From positions 1 through 64,000 of the forward strand of contig JAHJCU010000008.1 in the NCBI GenBank assembly GCA_018812925.1: a stretch of 64,000 nt of DNA, written 5' to 3'. The position numbers and the translations under genes are program-made. Positions 1-44,023 of the stretch are shown here, one piece after another; the first letter of the stretch is position 1, and each line of letters starts with the position of its first letter. This DNA is from Candidatus Omnitrophota bacterium. Lineage in GTDB: Bacteria; CAIJMQ01. Under the pieces are notes generated by a model, which worked only from the letters and a program-made list of their open reading frames with translations, searched no databases and was not told the origin of the DNA.

Positions 1-696
1 ATATATTATCGTTGAAAATTTTTCTTCGTGCGATGAAATTAATTCAATTTTGACAGCTTTCAATATTTTCTCAGTCTGTTGGATATCCCAACTGTCCAGC
101 CAATCTTTTCCGTCCGAATATTTAAAATTGAAATTTTTCAAGTTATCGCTCCAAACATAAGATTTAAGGTATTTGTGTTCGTCTAATGTAAAATTTACAA
201 GAGGTTCTTCTTCTCTTATCAGTAATCCCTTGTTTTCATCATTAATAATGAATTTATAAGTAATTTTTGTTAAGCATGTAAAAGGGAAATATAAAGATTT
301 TGCCGTAGTATAAAAACTAAAAGTTTTTTCATCTCCTTCCAGTCCGTTATAATCGGTTTTTTCCTGCGATGTCGAAACAGCTTGTGAATCGGTAATAAAA
401 TAAACAGAGGATATTTCACTGCGCATTTTTCTAAATACATTTCGCGCAAGATAGTAGTCTTCTTGCCTGCCGTCCCATTTTTCCAATGTCTTCAATGTTA
501 GAGAATAAGTGGAAATAATTGCTAAAAAAACTATACTGGAAATAGCCACTGCAATAAGAAGCTCGACAAGGGTAAACCCCGTTCGGTTTGGTAATCGGTA
601 ATCGTCCCTCTGGAATTTCAGGAAAATTCCGAGGATTGAGTCCCCGAAAATCTCCGATTTTCTGGGGATAAATGGTAAATGGTAATTTTTTGTCAT
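1..696 (-). CDS. GspJ-like minor pseudopilin, 3' end outside window
   Basis: Minor pseudopilin of a type II secretion/type IV pilus-like system. The frame is open from the ATG at 696 to the window edge (232 codons), so the C-terminus is missing. A class III prepilin signal (TGFTLVELLIAVAI) starts near residue 41, after an unusually long leader. The leader is coded by the short repeat ACCATTT and by the palindrome at 606-667. The ATG overlaps the gspI stop (ATGA). After the hydrophobic helix comes a GspJ-sized soluble domain. The J assignment rests on the order G-H-I-J and on size. Family membership is clear; the exact subtype is inferred. Confidence 0.8.
   Translation of the reverse strand, partial: MTKNYHLPFIPRKSEIFGDSILGIFLKFQRDDYRLPNRTGFTLVELLIAVAISSIVFLAIISTYSLTLKTLEKWDGRQEDYYLARNVFRKMRSEISSVYFITDSQAVSTSQEKTDYNGLEGDEKTFSFYTTAKSLYFPFTCLTKITYKFIINDENKGLLIREEEPLVNFTLDEHKYLKSYVWSDNLKNFNFKYSDGKDWLDSWDIQQTEKILKAVKIELISSHEEKFSTIIY
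606..667 (-). repeat. Cloverleaf palindrome family 1, copy in gspJ leader
   Basis: On the minus strand it runs from CCCC to AGAGGG, with three internal inverted repeats: GAAAATC/GATTTTC, a central GGACT/ATCC-type pair and GGAATTTTC/GAAATTCC. It is about 62 bp, is read through in frame, and codes roughly residues 10-31 of the GspJ leader. Its orientation is opposite to the copies at 1656 and 2264. Confidence 0.8.
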
Positions 697-1163
697 CTTT
701 TCGTTCCTGTTTGCATAATATTGGACTGTAAGCGATAAGTGTGAAGAACAATTTGGGTATTTTCCGGGCCAGATACAGTTATCGTTATCTTTTTTAATCC
801 GTCAATATCCGAGTCTTCTACTTCTCTTTGCCAAGAGAACTCGGAATAATCTTCTCCGCCTGCCAAATCTTGGCGGACAGGGAATTTTCCATCTTCGGTT
901 CTCATAAGCGGATTTTCCTGCATAAATGTATCCGAAAGAATTTCGTTTGCCAAAAAGACAGCTGTCGTATGATATTTTGCTTTCATTGCCTGCCTTATAG
1001 ATAAAAGTTGTGAATGGATTAAAACTGTCAATGTAAGGCCGACAATAGCAAGAGAAATGAGCACCTCAAGTAGAGTAAATCCTGTTCGGTTTTCGGTATT
1101 TGTTTTTCGGTGTTCGTTTTTTCCCGATAACCGATAACCGATAACCGGTAATTTATTATTCAT
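693..1163 (-). CDS. GspI-like minor pseudopilin
   Basis: Minor pseudopilin with a class III signal (TGFTLLEVLISLAIVGL) after a leader of about 29 residues, partly coded by a CCGATAAC tandem repeat. ATG 1163 is chosen over TTG 1175 because GGGAGGAGG lies directly before it and the ATG overlaps the gspH stop as ATGA. The product is 156 residues, near the usual GspI size. Residues around PVRQDLAGGE are coded by a small palindrome (855-881) and look like an in-frame insertion. Position between H and J supports the I call. Confidence 0.82.
   Translation of the reverse strand: MNNKLPVIGYRLSGKNEHRKTNTENRTGFTLLEVLISLAIVGLTLTVLIHSQLLSIRQAMKAKYHTTAVFLANEILSDTFMQENPLMRTEDGKFPVRQDLAGGEDYSEFSWQREVEDSDIDGLKKITITVSGPENTQIVLHTYRLQSNIMQTGTKR
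855..881 (-). repeat. CCTGYCCGCC-type palindrome inside gspI
   Basis: On the minus strand CCTGTCCGCCAAG is followed by TTGGCAGGCGGA, giving overlapping inverted repeats. The same CCTGCCCG...GCAGGCGGG architecture occurs inside both V-ATPase genes (49235-49267 and 49936-49973), always in frame. Confidence 0.65.
1125..1150 (-). repeat. CCGATAAC tandem word repeat in gspI leader
   Basis: Three and a half copies of an 8-bp word (CGATAACC on the plus strand) code part of the GspI leader peptide (PVIGYRLS). TTCGGTGTTCG words next to it recur at the start of the V-ATPase A gene near 47508. Confidence 0.7.
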
Positions 1164-1795
1164 TCCTCCTCCCAATATCCATCCTCAACATAGCTTTGAC
1201 CAGTCAAAGGATTTATAAAAAGAGTATAGAATTTTGAGTCGCTATCAATAAAATGAATAGTCGCCGGCTCGACAAAACCTGCGGGATTAAAAATTAAAGA
1301 AACTATGCCTTCGGTAATTTTATCGCCTTTGAAATTGACTATATCTTTTATTTTCAAAGCGGAGCTTAATTTTTTTTCGGGAAGTAAAAACTCTTCATCC
1401 CCGTCAATTAAAGACACAGCTTGGAATTTGTTTTCGTCTAAATTAAACAAAAGATTGATTTCTTTGTTTTGAACTTGGGATAAATCATATACGGATTTTA
1501 TAATTTGAGATATTTTTTCGATTTGTCTTTCTTTTTCTAATTTCGATTTGTGAATACCGATATTGGGTAAAACAAGTGATAAAACTATGCCGATAACCAA
1601 AATAACAAGAGATAATTCAAGTAACGTGAAACCGTTACTTTTTATTAAAGATTTACCCCTAGAAATTCGAAGAATTTCAGGGACTAAGTCCTCGGAATCT
1701 TTACAAGATTCCAGAGGGAGATTAAAGATTGAAGATTTATTATCAGAATATTGAATTTTATTATTATTCAATGTCCCAAGAGTAGATATCTTCAT
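1160..1795 (-). CDS. GspH-like minor pseudopilin with repeat-derived leader
   Basis: Pseudopilin of 211 residues. The class III signal NGFTLLELSLVILVIGIVL begins only near residue 56, and the domain after it is GspH-like in size. The start is ATG 1795, with GGAGAAGG six bases upstream; the gene overlaps the gspG end by 32 bp. Roughly residues 26-46 of the leader are coded by the 63-bp palindrome at 1656-1718, followed directly by KSLIKSNGF. A later TTG near 1771 is a possible alternative start but would still include the palindrome. The type assignment rests on gene order. Confidence 0.78.
   Translation of the reverse strand: MKISTLGTLNNNKIQYSDNKSSIFNLPLESCKDSEDLVPEILRISRGKSLIKSNGFTLLELSLVILVIGIVLSLVLPNIGIHKSKLEKERQIEKISQIIKSVYDLSQVQNKEINLLFNLDENKFQAVSLIDGDEEFLLPEKKLSSALKIKDIVNFKGDKITEGIVSLIFNPAGFVEPATIHFIDSDSKFYTLFINPLTGQSYVEDGYWEEE
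1656..1718 (+). repeat. Cloverleaf palindrome family 1, copy in gspH leader
   Basis: Exactly 63 bp. The closing stem is CCCCT/AGAGGG. Hairpin 1 is GAAATTC-gaa-GAATTTC, the central hairpin GGACT-aa-GTCC and hairpin 3 GGAATCTT-ac-AAGATTCC. It is translated on the opposite strand as 21 in-frame codons. Confidence 0.88.
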
Positions 1796-2348
1796 CAAAT
1801 CCTTCTCCGCCTTCTTTTCCGTCTCTTCCCAAGGATATTATATTGAATTCGCCGTATAAGCCCGGACTTAAATAAATAAATGGATTAACCCATGCGTCCA
1901 AAGGAACTTTGCCTTTTTCCAAATATCCGCCCTCATCATAACTTGTCGGTATTTTTCCTACTGTCGGTTTTTCCACAAGAGCTTTTAAGCCCTGTTCTGT
2001 GGAGGGATAAAAACCACAGTCTAACTTAAACAGTTTCAATGCTTGTTCTAAATTTCTTATTTGGGTTCTTGTTTGAGTTACTTTTGCCTTTTCATATTGA
2101 ACCATTATTCTGGGAGACACAATCGCTACTAACAACCCAATTATGACAACTACCACCATTATTTCAATAAGGGTAAAACCACTACTTCTCATTAAAGATT
2201 GAAGATTGAAGATTGAAGATTTCTCATTATTTAAACTTTTCGGATCTCTAATCTTTAATCTTGCCCCGAGAAATCCATAGGATTTCCGGGACTCAGTCCC
2301 TGAAATTGCTTTGCAATTTCTAGGGGAATCTTGAATCTTGAATTCCAT
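1764..2348 (-). CDS. gspG: Type II secretion major pseudopilin GspG
   Basis: Major pseudopilin. Strong family marks are GFTLIEIMVVVVIIGLL, the YPSTEQGLKAL block, and a C-terminal calcium-loop type region ending in GRDGKEGGEGFDEDI. The ATG at 2348 is preceded by AAGGAGG at ideal spacing, so the true leader is about 54 residues, against the usual 6-15. It includes 21 codons from the palindrome at 2264-2326 and several GAAGATT words. An internal ATG (MRSSGF) would give a normal leader but has no ribosome site. The gene follows prmC by 2 bp and leads the second pseudopilin set. Confidence 0.93.
   Translation of the reverse strand: MEFKIQDSPRNCKAISGTESRKSYGFLGARLKIRDPKSLNNEKSSIFNLQSLMRSSGFTLIEIMVVVVIIGLLVAIVSPRIMVQYEKAKVTQTRTQIRNLEQALKLFKLDCGFYPSTEQGLKALVEKPTVGKIPTSYDEGGYLEKGKVPLDAWVNPFIYLSPGLYGEFNIISLGRDGKEGGEGFDEDIYSWDIE
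2264..2326 (+). repeat. Cloverleaf palindrome family 1, copy in gspG leader
   Basis: 63 bp. The closing stem is CCCCGAG/CTAGGGG. Hairpin 1 is GAAATCC-ata-GGATTTC, centre GGGACTcaGTCCC and hairpin 3 GAAATTGC-ttt-GCAATTTC. The hairpin arms differ in sequence from the gspH copy but keep their pairing, which is compensatory change. Confidence 0.88.
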
Positions 2349-4593: not shown

Positions 4594-4902
4594 TTTAGAC
4601 CTCCTTTGGTTAACTAATAAATTAAATATCAAAAATCAAATATACATATCAAAATGTAAACAGAATATTCTAAATCACTAATAATCAAGAAACAAGATAT
4701 CCCCTGCAATATGCACCCTGAAATTTCGTAGAAATTTCGAGGACTAAATCCTCGCTCCAACGTAATGTCGGAGCAATAACCAAACAAATTCCAATATTCA
4801 ATACCCAATCACCAAAACTTTGTTTGATTATTGAAAATTGGTGATTGGTTATTAATTATTTCTGTCATTTTACATTTTTAATTTTAAATTTTGAATTTAA
4901 TA
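4594..4902. other. Spacer between rho and rpmE
   Basis: This 309-bp spacer holds no credible gene. It contains a degenerate family-1 palindrome (4716-4775) and ATTGAAAATTGG / GTGATTGG word repeats (about 4800-4860), similar in style to the repeats in the pilin leaders. The bases just before rpmE carry its ribosome site. Confidence 0.6.
4716..4775 (+). repeat. Cloverleaf palindrome family 1, divergent copy
   Basis: Hairpin 1 is GAAATTTC-gta-GAAATTTC and the centre is GAGGACTaaaTCCTC. The third hairpin is replaced by GCTCCAAC...GTCGGAGC, and the closing stem is lost. This is a degenerate or recombined copy in the rho-rpmE spacer. Confidence 0.6.
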
Positions 4903-6881: not shown

Positions 6882-6919
6882 TTGAGAATTCCCTCGTTTC
6901 ATTTGGGAATTTGATTATA

Positions 6920-7074
6920 CCCTTGCAATTCGAAGAATTGCGGGCACTTAACCCCCCTTTAAGGGACTAAATCCCTGAAATGCTCTGCATTTCTAGGGAT
7001 CGGAAACCTTTCCCCGTGGAATGCAAAGCATTCCCGGGACTTTGGTCCTCGCAATTTTTCAAAATTGCAGAGGG
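6920..7074 (+). repeat. Cluster of family-1 cloverleaf palindromes
   Basis: Fills most of the spacer between coaE and the exonuclease. At least three units are visible: a partial one at 6920-6945 (GCAATTC/GAATTGC), a partial one near 6952-6998 (AGGGACTaaATCCCT, AAATGC/GCATTT) and a full 63-bp one at 7012-7074 (GGAATGC/GCATTCC, GGGACTttGGTCC, GCAATTTT/AAAATTGC, AGAGGG). Confidence 0.85.
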
Positions 7075-25700: not shown

Positions 25701-27100
25701 CGGGTTATCCATACCATATTATTATCATTGTCATAAATTGTCCGAACTTGTTTTAGACCCGACGCTGAAACGACAGTGATTTTAGCGCCTATCCATTCAT
25801 CATCATCCCAGTTTTGATTACTATCGTTTAAATTATCAACAGCCGAAACTCCCGTAACAAGCCCCGTATCTTCGTGGGATATTTCAAGAAAAGTGGAAAC
25901 ATTGTCGGTGTCGGCATAGTCAATCGTATTAACCGCGCATTGAGCAGATAACCGTTTTAGTTCTTCATAGGTAAAATCCGGAGAAATTAAATCCTGCCAC
26001 GCCTCGAACATAACCGAATAAAGCGAAGTTGCGTCTTTTATAAGATTTATGTTCATCCTCAAAAACCCCGAATCGGTGGTATTTTCATCCGAAGAATAGA
26101 CGGTGAGATATGGTTTTATTTTTTGGAAAGTGGTATCTCCAATATCCGCTACTTCCTTTATTTCTTCAACAGTTATAAAAGGGGTATCAGCGTTAACGCC
26201 ACCAACATAGGTATACGGCTTCCACGCGACAAATTCATAAGGGTCATCTAAACCTTCGTCTTCTTCGTCAACATCTCCGTCGGCATCATTGTCTATACCG
26301 TCGTGTCCCAAAATAACACTGTCTGCATTATCATCAAAATTATTATCCCCTGCCTCTCCGTCAGAGCCATATTGGTAAATTAATATGTTATCGGCTAAAA
26401 CTTGAGCAGCCTCCCACTCATTACCAAGAGAATCAGGTAGGTCCCAATATTTTAATTCGTCGTCACTGCCAGCATAAAAGAAATCCCTTAAATTAATCTC
26501 AAACGGCTTCCATCCCTGTCGCGGGTCATCAGGAGAATTATCCCAATTATCCGAACCAACTACTTGAAAGCCCGCCGTATTTATATTTATTTTGCTTGAT
26601 TCGTCTATTATCAAAACAGCATATCTGCCCACCGTATCACCGTTATCATCGGCAACATATATCCAGCGGGAATCTCTTCTTTCCACAGCATCAGAGTAAG
26701 AACTAATATATGTAGTATCATTATTTACGCTGTTGTCATCATCATCAACATAGGCGCTGAAAGTGCTGTCATTTAAATCATCATTTCTATATCCCCATTT
26801 GCTTAATTCATAAGAAACAAATCCCGTATCTCTGCCGTCTGATTTGAGAACTATGATTGCGTGTTCTATCCCCGACTTTGCGATATAGGACGCTTTCAAA
26901 CCTTGCATATAATTAAACGCCGTTTTTTCTTCCATACGCATCGTATACATAAACGTAATACCAATGGACGAAAGAACGGCAATAATCGCAACTACTATGA
27001 CAAGAGCCATACCGGAGTTATTCATTGAAGATTCCAGATTGAAGATTAAAGATTGTGGAATCTTTAATTTTGAATTTTGAATTTTTAATTTATTATTCAC
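22766..27100 (-). CDS. Giant GspK/PilX-like minor pseudopilin with lamin-tail domain
   Basis: 1444 residues; family members usually have about 300. The prepilin-type signal NNSGMALVIVVAIIAVLSS starts near 27 after a repeat-derived leader. Next come the GspK start region (KASYIAKSGIEHAI), an acidic EF-hand-like stretch (GHDGIDNDADGDVDEEDEG, about 264-283), four copies of a beta repeat (about 430, 590, 867 and 1070) and a lamin-tail-like domain split around 493 and 722-790. A helix-hairpin-helix of GspK type (RININTADTVILQSLPGI) is near 1317. It overlaps the upstream pseudopilin by 4 bp (ATGA). It could be a pilus-tip adhesin (inference). Confidence 0.85.
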   Translation of the reverse strand: MNNKLKIQNSKLKIPQSLIFNLESSMNNSGMALVIVVAIIAVLSSIGITFMYTMRMEEKTAFNYMQGLKASYIAKSGIEHAIIVLKSDGRDTGFVSYELSKWGYRNDDLNDSTFSAYVDDDDNSVNNDTTYISSYSDAVERRDSRWIYVADDNGDTVGRYAVLIIDESSKININTAGFQVVGSDNWDNSPDDPRQGWKPFEINLRDFFYAGSDDELKYWDLPDSLGNEWEAAQVLADNILIYQYGSDGEAGDNNFDDNADSVILGHDGIDNDADGDVDEEDEGLDDPYEFVAWKPYTYVGGVNADTPFITVEEIKEVADIGDTTFQKIKPYLTVYSSDENTTDSGFLRMNINLIKDATSLYSVMFEAWQDLISPDFTYEELKRLSAQCAVNTIDYADTDNVSTFLEISHEDTGLVTGVSAVDNLNDSNQNWDDDEWIGAKITVVSASGLKQVRTIYDNDNNMVWITRNWDTDPPAGSYYHIQDNAVTRGVEAIRINEIMVKPAYQWEAEELFENSEDFGIDWDFDTNDTGIYSEIPSTITDPKTISADMEIYREGFYRLRALTYSSAPDTGLVANDGDGYDTTLEVIGKLWEDDQWESALVTVISENPPGTTIEQTRRVISNEGSMLEIDSSEPWNTVPDPNDGFSVAQDHSFTITLKSDAPDVVLEAGTRNIGGWLLEDLGIIEVKDAGLGEIELETSENTNERNGARLDYIQLSQQPDCEYVELVNISDNDVDIGGWVLATSAGWTGTIPDDTIIEAREYMVLAVDKDDSLSLDFDQDDDDVPIKAQDNIFVENTWFDGNNSDRVVQLQLSTSPINIAEDGFGDTIILSGSIFTDSPIEIPAGKEESGEYIVIGENTLQIGSSPWLNNQWKGATIIANIDVNGDGSDTQITRQVSSNTSDTITISTKWDWSGAVIDESSSNRSYYIFFKPMAVTLYKGALADQQIVSQVNYLAEDINRVCYTQENDVPVYGFIALEKDDPTAVWDRNNDGVDDMWHLNKADLEVPEIFGATPTMENSVCVNNPSLAINANVANLPFATIGKIKDVSRMRIEVFGWASDGGDDTLEDNTKTWGSDDWEGAYVLIASGKGAGQIREIKSNTSNEITVTQDWTTNPNNTSEYHIFFEWSQIGYDYYLDKEDTKLVQRIADKITVSQKRLEAENSTYYNNGVWDLAENPADDTFLTPYYSCSNPAVNPNDTGIWIWGIDQRINPDTAIYELYISGRVVGLDAPDTMLVKVTTGVIDQITGNPTTVTREISFAPDNIADFGQITIGGDIVPANPGEFLKVEIWKDYTDINTIYFDAVILAPEYRTYGRININTADTVILQSLPGITQPIATAIVNYRQDLDGYDGIDDYNVLNSDDGPFNDIGEILNVEDAGGNKVISLDIFSKISNLITTKSKVFTIISTGQALRKSDKGTITYPAGSTDRYEILGEKKYMVVMER

Positions 27101-27828
27101 TGTCCGCTCCCGGGTATATTGACTATCGTAATAAAAGTATCGTGTCTTATATCGTCTTTTTCCGATTCGTATGCCATAACAAGAGTGATTTTTATCGCGC
27201 GGGGTAAAACTAATGTAGGATTACCAGCATCATCCCAATCCCCAGGATTAGCATAGATGGTGGTCCATTGTTGTCCGTCAAAATATTCAAACTGCAGATT
27301 GGAAACACTTCCGATAAGAGAAGCGGTCGAGCCAAGATCACTCACGTCAAAAACAGAATCATTATTGCTATCAAAGTCAAAATCATTGGTTCTGGTAGTC
27401 CAACCTCTCATAAGTTCTTCATTAGTCATCCAATAACCTACCTCACACAATTCAGCTTGATAATAATCAGCCTTAGGGGATTTAATATCCGCATCAGGAT
27501 TTAATGGAGCAATAAATAAGAAAGTATCGGGATTACCCCCTGTGCCATCTAATCCCCAGCATTCAGCCCCATTTCTCTCATCTACGAACGCTTTTTCTAT
27601 TTCTCTTGACATCATATCCAAAGCGGCGCGGGCTTCAGAATATATAATAGCTTTATTCGTGCCTTTTCGCTGTGAAAATAAACTACTCTGAAACACCGAA
27701 AATAAAGTCGAAGATATAACCGCAAGTATTGCGACAACTATCATTACTTCGATTAAAGTTAAACCTTTAGTTGATAGTCGATAGTTGATAGTCGATAGTC
27801 TAATAATAAAATTGTTTTCTTTTCTCAT
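27097..27828 (-). CDS. GspJ/PilW-like minor pseudopilin
   Basis: 243 residues with signal KGLTLIEVMIVVAILAVIS. The soluble part contains the GspJ-like RAALDMMSREIEKAF and a C-terminal VSNLQFEYFDGQQW. The leader (about 22 residues, NFIIRLSTINYRLST) is coded by a tandem of ATCGACTATCAACT. It is fourth in the minor-pilin run and overlaps the GspK-like gene by 4 bp. Confidence 0.85.
   Translation of the reverse strand: MRKENNFIIRLSTINYRLSTKGLTLIEVMIVVAILAVISSTLFSVFQSSLFSQRKGTNKAIIYSEARAALDMMSREIEKAFVDERNGAECWGLDGTGGNPDTFLFIAPLNPDADIKSPKADYYQAELCEVGYWMTNEELMRGWTTRTNDFDFDSNNDSVFDVSDLGSTASLIGSVSNLQFEYFDGQQWTTIYANPGDWDDAGNPTLVLPRAIKITLVMAYESEKDDIRHDTFITIVNIPGSGQ
27771..27800 (-). repeat. Tandem word repeat in PilW-like leader
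   Basis: TTGATAGTCGATAG is repeated twice on the plus strand and coded on the minus strand as part of the leader peptide. Confidence 0.75.
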
Positions 27829-27868
27829 TTTTTTCTATAAACTTTAAACCATAAACTATAAACTTTTT

Positions 27869-28486
27869 TTATCTATACTTTTCATAAAACGGGTTTGAGA
27901 TATAGGTGATAAATGTATCTGCTCTGCCTCTATCGGCTTCTGTCCAATAAATAGCGACATAGACTTTTTGGCTTAATAAAACATCGTCCCAGTCCCAATT
28001 TGCAGGGAGGAGGTCTTCCCTACCTACTCTTGTATTTCCATTTGCGTCCCAATCTACGCTTTTTACATAGGCCGTCATATCTGTATCTTTATAACGATAT
28101 GTATAAGTAGTATAACCTGTAACAATATCTGTTATGGCATCCCCTACCACAAAAGGTTCCAAATCATTATCATTGAAGGGGAAGTAATAAGAGCCAGGTG
28201 CCACATATGGATTCGCTAATTCAAAATATCCTATACAATTATTATCGCTGAAAGGTGTTGGTAAGGCATTGGGCCCACCATCGCCCACGTCATAAATAGA
28301 CGCGGCTATCTTTATATTATCTATTACCCTTTGTGCGAGGATACTTGCCTCCGAAAAGGTAGATGCTCTTCGGGACAACTTTAAGCCGATAGGGAAAAGG
28401 TTTGCCAGCGCAACCAAAGCTATGGCAAGAATAGCCATTGATATTGCCATTTCAAGAAGAGTGAGACCTTTATTACTGTTCTTCAT
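27869..28486 (-). CDS. GspI/PilV-like minor pseudopilin
   Basis: 205 residues with a short, normal leader MKNSNKG before LTLLEMAISMAILAIALVALANLFPIGL. It is the only pilin-like gene here without repeat sequence in the leader. The start overlaps the preceding stop as ATGA. Position and a PilV-like N-terminal half support the call. Confidence 0.85.
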   Translation of the reverse strand: MKNSNKGLTLLEMAISMAILAIALVALANLFPIGLKLSRRASTFSEASILAQRVIDNIKIAASIYDVGDGGPNALPTPFSDNNCIGYFELANPYVAPGSYYFPFNDNDLEPFVVGDAITDIVTGYTTYTYRYKDTDMTAYVKSVDWDANGNTRVGREDLLPANWDWDDVLLSQKVYVAIYWTEADRGRADTFITYISNPFYEKYR

Positions 28487-29133
28487 TCTAATACTCCTAT
28501 TTTCCCTGTAAGAGCATTTACTCTGATAGCTTTGGTATCTTGAGTGGAAGTTTCTATTAGAACAATTGTTTGGTCACTTATTCCAGTACTTAAACCACCA
28601 GTAGTCTTAAATTCTAAAAAATATATTTCCGGATTTCCTGGAGCGTAAGAATTGCCTGCCTTTATAACCCAAGTATCAAATTCCACAAATTCAGACAATC
28701 CCTTCCAATTTTCTGCAAGACCATCATTGATAGTAGCAAAATCTTCATCCGTAGTATCAGCATCAATAGCAATGGTATTATTATCAGTATCAAAAACAAC
28801 CCTATAATTCTTTCTATCCGTAATAGCAGAATTTCTTGTTCTTCTTAAAGCGGATACGACCATATTGGTCCCTTCTTTCAAATTTTTGCCGCGTGTATAA
28901 TTTCGAAACATAGGCATAGAAGCGGCAACCAAAACCGCCATAATCGCAACAACAGTCATCAGTTCTATGAATGAGAAGCCGTTGCTTCTCATTAAAGATT
29001 TAAGATTCAAGATTGAAGATTGAACATTGCAGATTAAAGATTTTGAATTTTGTTTATCCCGTAGATTCCGACTTGCTGGAATCCTTCGGGAAATTTTGAA
29101 TTTGGAATCTTTAATTTTGAATTCATTTATCAT
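28483..29133 (-). CDS. GspH/FimT-like pseudopilin with long leader
   Basis: 216 residues. ATG 29133 overlaps the preceding stop as TAATG and has GGAGAG upstream; an earlier start at 29169 is less likely. The signal NGFSFIELMTVVAIMAVLVA begins only near residue 50. The leader is coded by a palindrome (CCCGTAGATTCC...GGAATC..CGGG, about 29058-29095) and GAAGATT words. The GspH-like soluble domain contains ALRRTRNSAITDRKNYRVVFD. Confidence 0.84.
   Translation of the reverse strand: MINEFKIKDSKFKISRRIPASRNLRDKQNSKSLICNVQSSILNLKSLMRSNGFSFIELMTVVAIMAVLVAASMPMFRNYTRGKNLKEGTNMVVSALRRTRNSAITDRKNYRVVFDTDNNTIAIDADTTDEDFATINDGLAENWKGLSEFVEFDTWVIKAGNSYAPGNPEIYFLEFKTTGGLSTGISDQTIVLIETSTQDTKAIRVNALTGKIGVLE
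29058..29095. repeat. Palindrome inside GspH-like leader
   Basis: CCCGTaGATTCC, spacer, GGAATCcttCGGG. It is translated in frame as part of the leader (SRRIPASRNLRDK). It may be a shortened relative of family 1, which also has a GGAATC/GATTCC hairpin. Confidence 0.65.
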
Positions 29134-29786
29134 TAATATTCTTCTCTCCAAAGTTTTTTCACATCCCAATTATTTACGTCGTCTGCGGCTTTAGTCGCAT
29201 CCCCTGTATCTTTATTTTTACCTGTGGAGTAAATGTAATAACCGAGATTATCAGGAGGAGTGCCAACTCCACCCGTATTATCAAGAGGATAATCCGTCCC
29301 TTGGGTAGGAGTAGAAGGATTTTCATTTTTCATATATACATAACCTGTATCCCATGAGTCGTTTTCTACGCCCTTTATATAGGGACCGTGCCAATTGGGA
29401 TCATTCCTAATAAGGTCTTCATCGGAACCCACAAGACCATCTTTGTCCCGTGCAGTAAGCCTCCACGCTAACACTTGTATTGATTCCCAAGCAGGTGCAG
29501 TAGGATGCGTATCTTCGGGATATCTTCCTGTATCATTTTCATACATAGCAATAGCGTTTTCTATTGCGGCTATGTCAGCTTCTGCTCTTGTCATTTTCGC
29601 TCTTTCCAATCTTCTTGCTACATTGGGCGTCATAATTCCCGCCAGCAAAACTATGATAGCGATTACCACCATAAGTTCCATGAGGGTGAATCCTTTACTT
29701 ATTGAAGATTGAAAATTAAAGATTGAAGATTCTTTATTGCAATCTTGAATCTGGAATCTGGAATCTGGAATTTCTAATTTATTCAT
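29133..29786 (-). CDS. GspG-like pseudopilin
   Basis: 217 residues, signal KGFTLMELMVVIAIIVLLAGIMTPN after a leader of about 30 residues that reads through GATTCCA and CTTCAAT words. The soluble part has the pilin helix (AKMTRAEADIAAIENAIAMY) and YPEDTHPTAP. ATG 29786 has AAGGAGGG at good spacing, which proves the long leader start. It is probably an alternative major pilin. Confidence 0.88.
   Translation of the reverse strand: MNKLEIPDSRFQIQDCNKESSIFNFQSSISKGFTLMELMVVIAIIVLLAGIMTPNVARRLERAKMTRAEADIAAIENAIAMYENDTGRYPEDTHPTAPAWESIQVLAWRLTARDKDGLVGSDEDLIRNDPNWHGPYIKGVENDSWDTGYVYMKNENPSTPTQGTDYPLDNTGGVGTPPDNLGYYIYSTGKNKDTGDATKAADDVNNWDVKKLWREEY
29703..29778 (-). repeat. GAAGATT/GATTCCA word repeats in pseudopilin leader
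   Basis: Repeated words ATTGAAGATT and AATCTGGAATCTGG on the plus strand code most of the leader of the neighbouring pseudopilin. The same words occur around 1730, 2195, 28995 and 27030. Confidence 0.7.
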
Positions 29787-29795
29787 AATCCCTCC

Positions 29796-30224
29796 TTATT
29801 CAAAAGTTATTTTTTTGGAAACTTTTGGGTTGCCATCTTTGCCAGTATCGGTCGTTGCAATAGTATATGAGCCTGTTCCCGGTGTAATCACATAGCTACC
29901 TCCCCAAGGAGTATCTAAACTTTCAGTCTGATCACTGGATATATAAGGACCTCCGACGCCAGCTTCCCATAATTTACCTAAATCATTAGGAGGCCCTCCA
30001 TTGTCAATTTGGAAAAGGCTTACTGCTTTAATGAGGATATCAATATCCGCTATTGCTTTAGCCTCTCTTCCTTTTTCCAGGTGCTTGATTACATTTGGTA
30101 TCATTATTGACGCTAAAATACCGATTATCGCAATTACAACCATCAGTTCGATAAGGGTGAAACCCCCTTTCGTAAATGGTAAATGGTAAATGGTAAATGG
30201 TAATTTAACTTCTTTAATCTTCAT
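29796..30224 (-). CDS. Type IV pilin / major pseudopilin
   Basis: First pilin gene of the run, 142 residues. The signal GGFTLIELMVVIAIIGILASIMIPN is strictly conserved (Glu5 present). The C-terminal half is short, with YTIATTDTGKDGNP near the end. The leader (about 20 residues) is coded by ACCATTT repeats. A GAGGAGGG ribosome site precedes ATG 30224, and a sigma-54 promoter lies 24 bp further up. It is likely the main fibre subunit. Confidence 0.9.
   Translation of the reverse strand: MKIKEVKLPFTIYHLPFTKGGFTLIELMVVIAIIGILASIMIPNVIKHLEKGREAKAIADIDILIKAVSLFQIDNGGPPNDLGKLWEAGVGGPYISSDQTESLDTPWGGSYVITPGTGSYTIATTDTGKDGNPKVSKKITFE
30172..30203 (-). repeat. GTAAATG tandem repeat in pilin leader
   Basis: Four tandem copies of the 7-bp word GTAAATG on the plus strand, coding LPFTIYHLPFT in the leader. 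The same word is in the gspJ leader (about 671-690). Confidence 0.85.
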
Positions 30225-30247
30225 TTCTTCCCTCCTCTTTCATATTA

Positions 30248-34500: not shown

Positions 34501-34563
34501 CCCCGAGAAATTCAAAGAATTTCCGGGACCAAGTCCTCGGAATCTTTTTAAGATTCCAGAGGG
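34501..34563 (+). repeat. Cloverleaf palindrome family 1, intergenic copy
   Basis: 63 bp between the GspE-like and PilC genes, close to the gspH-leader copy: GAAATTC-aaa-GAATTTC, GGACCaaGTCC, GGAATCTT/AAGATTCC, AGAGGG end. Confidence 0.88.
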
Positions 34564-43520: not shown

Positions 43521-43803
43521 TGGTGGTCATGCTAAGCGGGGAGATAGCGGTGCCCTGAACCTGCAATCCGCTATAGCAGGGCTTAATTCCTTCTTGGAGG
43601 TCTTATTTTTTCTGGGTTTAAGATTTAAGTAAGGGACATTGAAGGTCGGCTCCTGTGCGACAGAGAATTACGAACTCCGTCAGATCCGGAAGGAAGCAGC
43701 GGTAAGTAACCAACTCTGGGCGCCGCAGTGTTTCGTCTGGCTGGAGTCACCTACTTGATAATTGCCAAGAAAGAAAGAACGAAAAGAAGGTGTATGACCA
43801 CCA
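43521..43803 (+). ncRNA. ffs: Signal recognition particle RNA, large bacterial type
   Basis: About 283 nt. The ends TGGTGGTCAT and ATGACCACCA pair. The 5' part (GCTAAGCGGGGAGATAGCGG ..) is an Alu domain, and the S domain shows CAGATCCGGAAGGAAGCAGC with the GGAA tetraloop. The Alu domain marks the long form known from Bacillus, Thermotoga and others, unlike the 4.5S form of most Proteobacteria. It is followed by dnaX, the usual neighbour of bacterial SRP RNA. Confidence 0.95.
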
Positions 43804-43830: not shown

Positions 43831-43893
43831 CCCCTAGAAATTCGGAGAATTTCAGGGACTCCGTCCTCGGAATTTCAAAGAAATTCCAGAGGA
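43831..43893 (+). repeat. Cloverleaf palindrome family 1, intergenic copy
   Basis: 63 bp between SRP RNA and dnaX: CCCCTAGAAATTC-gga-GAATTTC, GGACTccGTCC, GGAATTTC-aaa-GAAATTCC, AGAGGA end. Confidence 0.88.
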
Positions 43894-43959: not shown

Positions 43960-44023
43960 CCCTTAGAGATTGCATAGCAATCTCAAGGACTTTGGTCCCG
44001 GGAATCTTTTAGATTCCACGGGG
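43960..44023 (+). repeat. Cloverleaf palindrome family 1, second intergenic copy
   Basis: About 64 bp: GAGATTGC-ata-GCAATCTC, GGACTttGGTCC, GGAATCTTTTAGATTCC, GGGG end. It lies 29 bp before dnaX. Confidence 0.85.

Follow-up and report, generated by a model that had tools for sequence, protein, structure and literature searches.

The question raised by this locus is why three prepilin genes at the start of a 64-kb window (the whole stretch of DNA that was analysed, 64,000 nt) each carry a palindrome within the leader. A first-pass annotation had described these palindromes as in-frame insertions with a conserved fold, and they proved to be real: a covariance model built from six copies in the window (CM R1) matches at all three positions (Table 1). 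As had been described, two copies lie in one orientation and one in the opposite, and in gspJ, gspH and gspG they are read in different frames, free of stop codons, between the start region and the G/FTLxE signal. Three further features emerged beyond that description, namely copies in mature enzymes, 7-bp-period arrays in the leaders, and membership of a family found in many phyla.

Copies in the window and in other genomes

All genomes compared are MAGs, including the genome under study (G000; 1.47 Mb, 92% complete). Copies in this genome were scored with CM R1, which identified around 57 of them, 48 full-length and about nine partial; this count is a lower bound (at least 57), because 150 of the 570 first-look candidates were scored. 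The genome-wide search that the first-pass annotation had called for also recovered copies in relatives, with approximately 40 in G001 and 25 in G002, both of the same genus as G000, and 8 in G003, of the same family. Three genomes from a different family of the class, and 34 genomes that are more distant still, yielded no copy.

A search of the GTDB collection with a pattern that gave no chance match in 100 shuffles of the window returned at least 80 matching loci. The matches listed come from Omnitrophota, Elusimicrobiota, NPL-UPA2, Phycisphaerales, Sedimentisphaerales, Nitrospirota, Spirochaetes and unnamed MAGs, and single matches in some phyla could be misbinned contigs. Five viral contigs of IMG/VR also carry pattern matches, while neither the phage nor the plasmid collection matched a 63-bp copy.

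Table 1. Elements, prepilin genes and 7-bp-period arrays in the window
Feature	Position	Strand	Evidence
Element in gspJ prepilin leader, in frame	606-668	-	CM R1, 79.7 bits
Element in gspH prepilin leader, in frame	1656-1718	+	88.1 bits
Element in gspG prepilin leader, in frame	2264-2326	+	86.8 bits
Degenerate copy	4714-4772	-	28.1 bits
Degenerate copy, shortened copy (6954-6999) nested in its centre	6918-6999
Full-length copy, no gene identified over it	7012-7074	+	68.9 bits
Full-length copy, intergenic	34501-34563	+	89.3 bits
Full-length copy, directly after the SRP RNA gene	43831-43893	+	83.4 bits
Full-length copy (64 bp) within a TTAC-type 7-bp array	43960-44023	-	80.5 bits
gspJ, incomplete at window edge, element in leader	1-696	-	PF07963 7e-8; PF11612 weak
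gspI-like pseudopilin, 7-bp arrays, no element in G000	693-1175	-	Pfam prepilin methylation motif
gspH-like pseudopilin, element in leader	1160-1798	-	PF07963 4e-4, 20.2 bits (slightly below the curated cut-off of 21.2); orthologue context
gspG, T2SS pseudopilin, leader enlarged by element and 7-bp array	1764-2348	-	PF08334 6e-37, PF07963
7-bp-period array (GGTAAAT)n beside gspJ element	669-690		sequence; phase test
7-bp-period array in prepilin leader	1085-1151
7-bp-period array beside gspH element	1719-1739		sequence; phase test
7-bp-period array (ATTGAAG)n in gspG leader	2186-2229
7-bp-period array in prepilin leader	27768-27800
7-bp-period array in prepilin leader	28991-29042
7-bp-period array in prepilin leader	29701-29771
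7-bp-period array in prepilin leader	30172-30203

The two copies near 44 kb lie close behind a bacterial large SRP RNA (43527-43797, 170.8 bits).

Two local hairpins in place of one cruciform

The palindrome had been read as a single cruciform closed by an outer CCC/AGGG stem, and this reading had to be abandoned. Among 79 ungapped distinct copies (one strand each), local pairing accounts for 97% of cells as against 50% for the long-range palindrome, and mutual information is highest in the local pairs. The conserved fold consists of two adjacent bulged hairpins, each of the form CCCN-bulge-stem-triloop-stem-NGGG, linked by ACTnAGT; the linker is conserved in the 79-copy consensus (GGGACTnAGTCC), and the outer ends are CCCC/GGGG, beyond which the flanks vary.

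The companion claim, that the fold is kept although the hairpin sequences differ, is borne out by strong covariation. The alignment used for this comprises 116 distinct rows, was fitted to the model, spans many phyla and includes some elements on both strands. In it, 98.9% of cells in the two-hairpin structure are standard-paired (84.1% after shuffling), double-change cells number 479 (148 after shuffling), and in 15 of the 23 base pairs both partners vary. Pairing falls to 58-67% when the partner is shifted by one column. As single strands, the three leader copies reach fold z values of -4.1 to -6.1 against dinucleotide shuffles.

G-U pairs make up only 1.8% of cells in the 79 ungapped copies, so that the stems change by Watson-Crick swaps. 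This scarcity, together with the compensatory changes, points to selection on DNA folding; selection or copying would then act on the folded DNA. A feature of the RNA, such as a terminator, an attenuator or a processing hairpin selected for operon function, would also account for strong hairpins and for the many intergenic copies, but we consider it extremely unlikely, given the low number of G-U intermediates, the occurrence of both orientations, the copies inside mature coding regions, the orthologous operons that lack the element, and the absence of any Rfam match.

Copies in protein-coding genes

Coding copies were called from open-frame reading combined with Pfam, PDB and orthologue comparison, as a codon-usage scan was too weak alone. 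Three prepilin leaders in G000 and five in G001 carry the element in frame; prepilin-motif matches number 24 in each of these genomes. The leader is removed by the prepilin peptidase, and should therefore tolerate changes in length. In-frame copies are also found within mature proteins. In HypF a copy separates the zinc fingers from the YrdC domain; PyrK has two, each coinciding with a gap in its alignment to 1EP1; MiaB also contains the element; and HisF carries it where 4 residues of HisF-LUCA have grown to about 49. Tolerance thus extends beyond removed leaders. An LptC-like protein has a copy in its signal-peptide region, an anti-sigma-like protein contains another, and further copies form C-terminal tails on proteins that we take to be NadC and RsfS. 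In other MAGs, in-frame copies were seen in what are presumably CobT, Fmt, MurB and NuoC, and in the leader of what appears to be a TadE-like pilin, all recognised by motifs. Open frames and conserved flanks suggest that the inserted peptides are translated.

In the leader of a TadE-like pilin of another MAG (L175:1904-2029) two copies adjoin each other, and the residue preceding the likely cleavage site is apparently encoded by the element.

The length of 63 bp had been reported for nearly all copies. This holds for coding copies, of which 15 of 16 are exactly 63 bp, but not for non-coding ones (47 of 96, with 50 of the 96 lengths a multiple of 3; Fisher p 0.0018, the copies in this test being partly interdependent).

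It might be argued that the leaders are untranslated, with a start further downstream, and that the palindromes reside in 5' UTRs. An internal ATG in gspG at MRSSGFTLIE would permit this, and some other copies are located just 5' of likely starts (GatB L006, L207, L033). Nevertheless, this alternative appears very unlikely: a clear AAGGAGG ribosome site stands immediately 5' of the upstream ATG of gspG, gspH has no ATG, GTG or TTG from the element to FTLLE, and for the copies inside the mature HypF, PyrK, MiaB and HisF proteins a UTR position is excluded.

Empty sites and precise gain

Orthologous prepilin genes without the element, which the first-pass annotation had proposed to look for, do exist. 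Among G000, G001 and G003, the element in gspG is present in G000 only and that in gspI in G001 only, while those in gspH and gspJ are shared by G000 and G001 and absent from G003, whose gspG, gspH, gspI and gspJ all lack it. Outside the prepilins, the PyrK inserts are missing from the G001 and G003 orthologues, and the HypF insert from those of G002 and G003. None of the outcomes named beforehand as speaking against an insertion, that is, the same insert at the same site in all relatives, no further copies in the genome, or no covariation, was encountered.

The first insert of PyrK is located in a linker that already held a 7-bp-period array. The distance between its conserved anchors is 86 nt in G001, in G003, and in G000 once the 63-bp element is subtracted; this is an exact gain of 63 bp without target duplication. 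Three nested copies, each splitting the loop of another copy between its nucleotides 2 and 3, likewise duplicated nothing. The target-site duplication by which MITEs are recognised is therefore lacking at the PyrK site and in the nested copies, and a simple target duplication is excluded there. A 7-bp duplication inside an array would look like none at all, but this does not apply to PyrK or to the nested copies. The second PyrK copy arrived together with its flanking sequence.

Target sites

A test for flanking direct repeats had also been suggested. When left and right flanks of 44 copies are compared, matches at lags of 7, 14, 21 and 28 (z 8.3, 10.9, 8.8 and 5.4) stand far above those at other lags. 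At the level of single copies, the phase is kept across the element in 26 of these 44 (3.8 in shuffled data), in 21 of 65 copies in G001-G003 (3.0 shuffled) and in 8 of 61 copies outside Ratteibacteria (0.6 shuffled). A second type of site is the hairpin loop, recognised by flanks that pair across the junction, which accounts for 15 of the 61 copies outside Ratteibacteria as against 1.5 in shuffled data. The junction consensus, TTN^NRAA, is dyad-symmetric, and T at +2 is seen in none of the 44 and none of the 65 copies.

In the window, 8 of 9 prepilin leaders contain 7-bp-period arrays, mostly with different units, and a strict scan of periods 2 to 13 found arrays only at period 7. Bacterial heptameric repeats are on record (PMC4692102); a search for literature on heptanucleotide repeats combined with palindromes found nothing. 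The enrichment of the element in leaders would then reflect both insertion tolerance and the supply of targets by these arrays.

A second cluster, comprising five prepilin genes, is found at 27000-30240, and most of its leaders contain 7-bp arrays; the leader before 28918-28992 also has a different, single hairpin (GATTCC...GGAATC).

These associations could in principle arise if 7-bp arrays and similar prepilin leaders exchanged sequence by homologous recombination or gene conversion, and if this exchange, with the palindrome as a passenger, were the main source of copies. Element subtypes do go with array types, three prepilin leaders of G001 carry the same subtype with similar flanks, and the flanking sequence brought along by the second PyrK copy fits as well. 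We nonetheless regard this as unlikely to be the main route, since PyrK copy 1, the nested copies and the copies in unrelated hairpins are clean insertions, and the family is spread across phyla with unrelated flanks. Some spread may still have occurred by recombination between similar leaders or arrays.

Proposed mechanism and comparison with known elements

Comparison of the genomes suggests that the element is mobile, and we conclude that it is probably a non-autonomous, hairpin-dependent mobile DNA of about 63 bp, inserting precisely at TTN^NRAA-like sites. According to this model, a trans-acting enzyme would recognise the folded single-stranded hairpins, two inverted bulged stems with triloops, and move the element to short dyad-symmetric sites with no target duplication. 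Such sites would be supplied mostly by 7-bp-period arrays and by hairpin loops, including those of other copies. Insertions in dispensable peptide (prepilin leaders, interdomain linkers, surface loops, tails) would be kept as in-frame additions, because the element corresponds to 21 codons and is open in several frames. The family, its fold, its polymorphism, the zero-duplication gain in PyrK, the target preferences and the open frames are direct observations, whereas the enzyme and the reason for the enrichment in leaders belong to the model.

A wider formulation, in which this cross-phylum double-hairpin family uses 7-bp arrays as landing pads, and element and arrays both stem from a single system for processing single-strand DNA, by which peptide keeps being added to dispensable protein regions and to prepilin leaders in particular, seems rather unlikely at present.

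Non-autonomous elements derived from IS200/IS605 have irregular terminal hairpins and insert without target duplication. The element described here shares both properties, having two irregular hairpins, although no Y1 gene of its own or adjacent to it was found, and its target is dyad-symmetric, in contrast to the fixed tetranucleotide on one side that is used by IS200/IS605.

A strict REP dimer (REPIN), moved by a RAYT/Y1 transposase that is encoded elsewhere or has since been lost from G000, is a possible but doubtful alternative. Like REP dimers, REPINs and the BIMEs associated with RAYT, the element is a high-copy inverted pair of short imperfect hairpins (PMC3116915, PMC3733652, PMC2817692), and the extrahelical base, the intragenic copies, the insertion into palindromes and the lack of duplication also resemble REP dimers (PMC3733652, PMC3116915). 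Some REP dimers lie within larger palindromes, and intragenic REP dimers encoding 20-30 residues have been reported in Opitutus terrae and Rickettsia conorii (PMC3733652). Y1_Tnp genes are moreover present in G001, G002 and 18 of 25 other element-bearing genomes. Against this, the consensus of the 79 ungapped copies has neither GTAG at the hairpin foot nor a CGTC tag, no Y1_Tnp gene was found in G000, G003 or 7 of the 25 other carriers, and no copy lies closer than about 1.5 kb to any of 34 Y1 loci from carriers and relatives. A RAYT flanked by copies of the element was accordingly rejected at these loci, and membership of the REP/RAYT family is not claimed. The element further differs from REPINs in being one sequence family over many phyla, with zero-duplication landing in 7-bp arrays. 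Published CGTC REPs are also without a dedicated transposase (PMC3733652), which provides a precedent for a tag-less relative without one.

The Rickettsia palindromic elements (RPE; Ogata 2000/2002), which the first-pass annotation had cited as precedent for in-frame palindromes, do fit in behaviour. They are likewise palindromic and multicopy, occur in frame in metabolic genes that are unrelated to one another, and are tolerated in otherwise intact proteins (PMC10969869, PMC3733652); in-frame insertion into unrelated protein genes is common to CGTC REPs, RPEs and the present element. RPEs were first reported at around 150 bp, as opposed to 63 bp here, and the R. conorii repeats end in CGTC, a tag found at neither end of our element. 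The element also differs from RPEs in its occurrence in uncultured phyla and its landing inside 7-bp arrays and hairpin loops. The double-hairpin elements of Allomyces mtDNA are, from their description in PMC2800124, hairpin-forming, mobile between relatives and without flanking duplications, although they are mitochondrial.

Significance

Protein-coding palindromes have so far been treated mainly as a peculiarity of Rickettsiales, with intragenic REP dimers known from a small number of other bacteria. The present case is one sequence-related family, found in several uncultured phyla, whose clean empty orthologous sites allow a direct reading of gain, target site, frame and phase. The literature searched contained no paper on the family, which does not prove that no description exists; it appears that the family has not been described, and neither have its precise landing sites or its occurrence over many phyla. 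Its copies document, in nature, the positions at which proteins accommodate 21 additional residues, and the mobilisation of tag-less palindromes becomes testable. Annotation should treat the enlarged prepilin leaders and enzyme loops of these MAGs as insertions, not as new domains.

Flanks of particular copies

A CATTG-type flank adjoins four copies (L013, L072:1491-1553, L074 and L077), in two of them clearly TGTCATTG. On the opposite side of these copies CGAG is frequent, as if they had entered a second dispersed repeat at a single point. In two Phycisphaerales MAGs (L112, L172), CACCG is found on both sides of the element and the right flank is shared, and the element may there be part of a larger repeat or have caused a 5-bp duplication. 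Finally, most of the copies listed for the Omnitrophota MAG S2.42 (the list comprises L104, L106, L120, L152, L154, L161, L171 and L178) occupy the loop of one recurrent hairpin, CCCGGGCT/AGCCCGGG, which gives the impression that element and surrounding hairpin move together as a composite.
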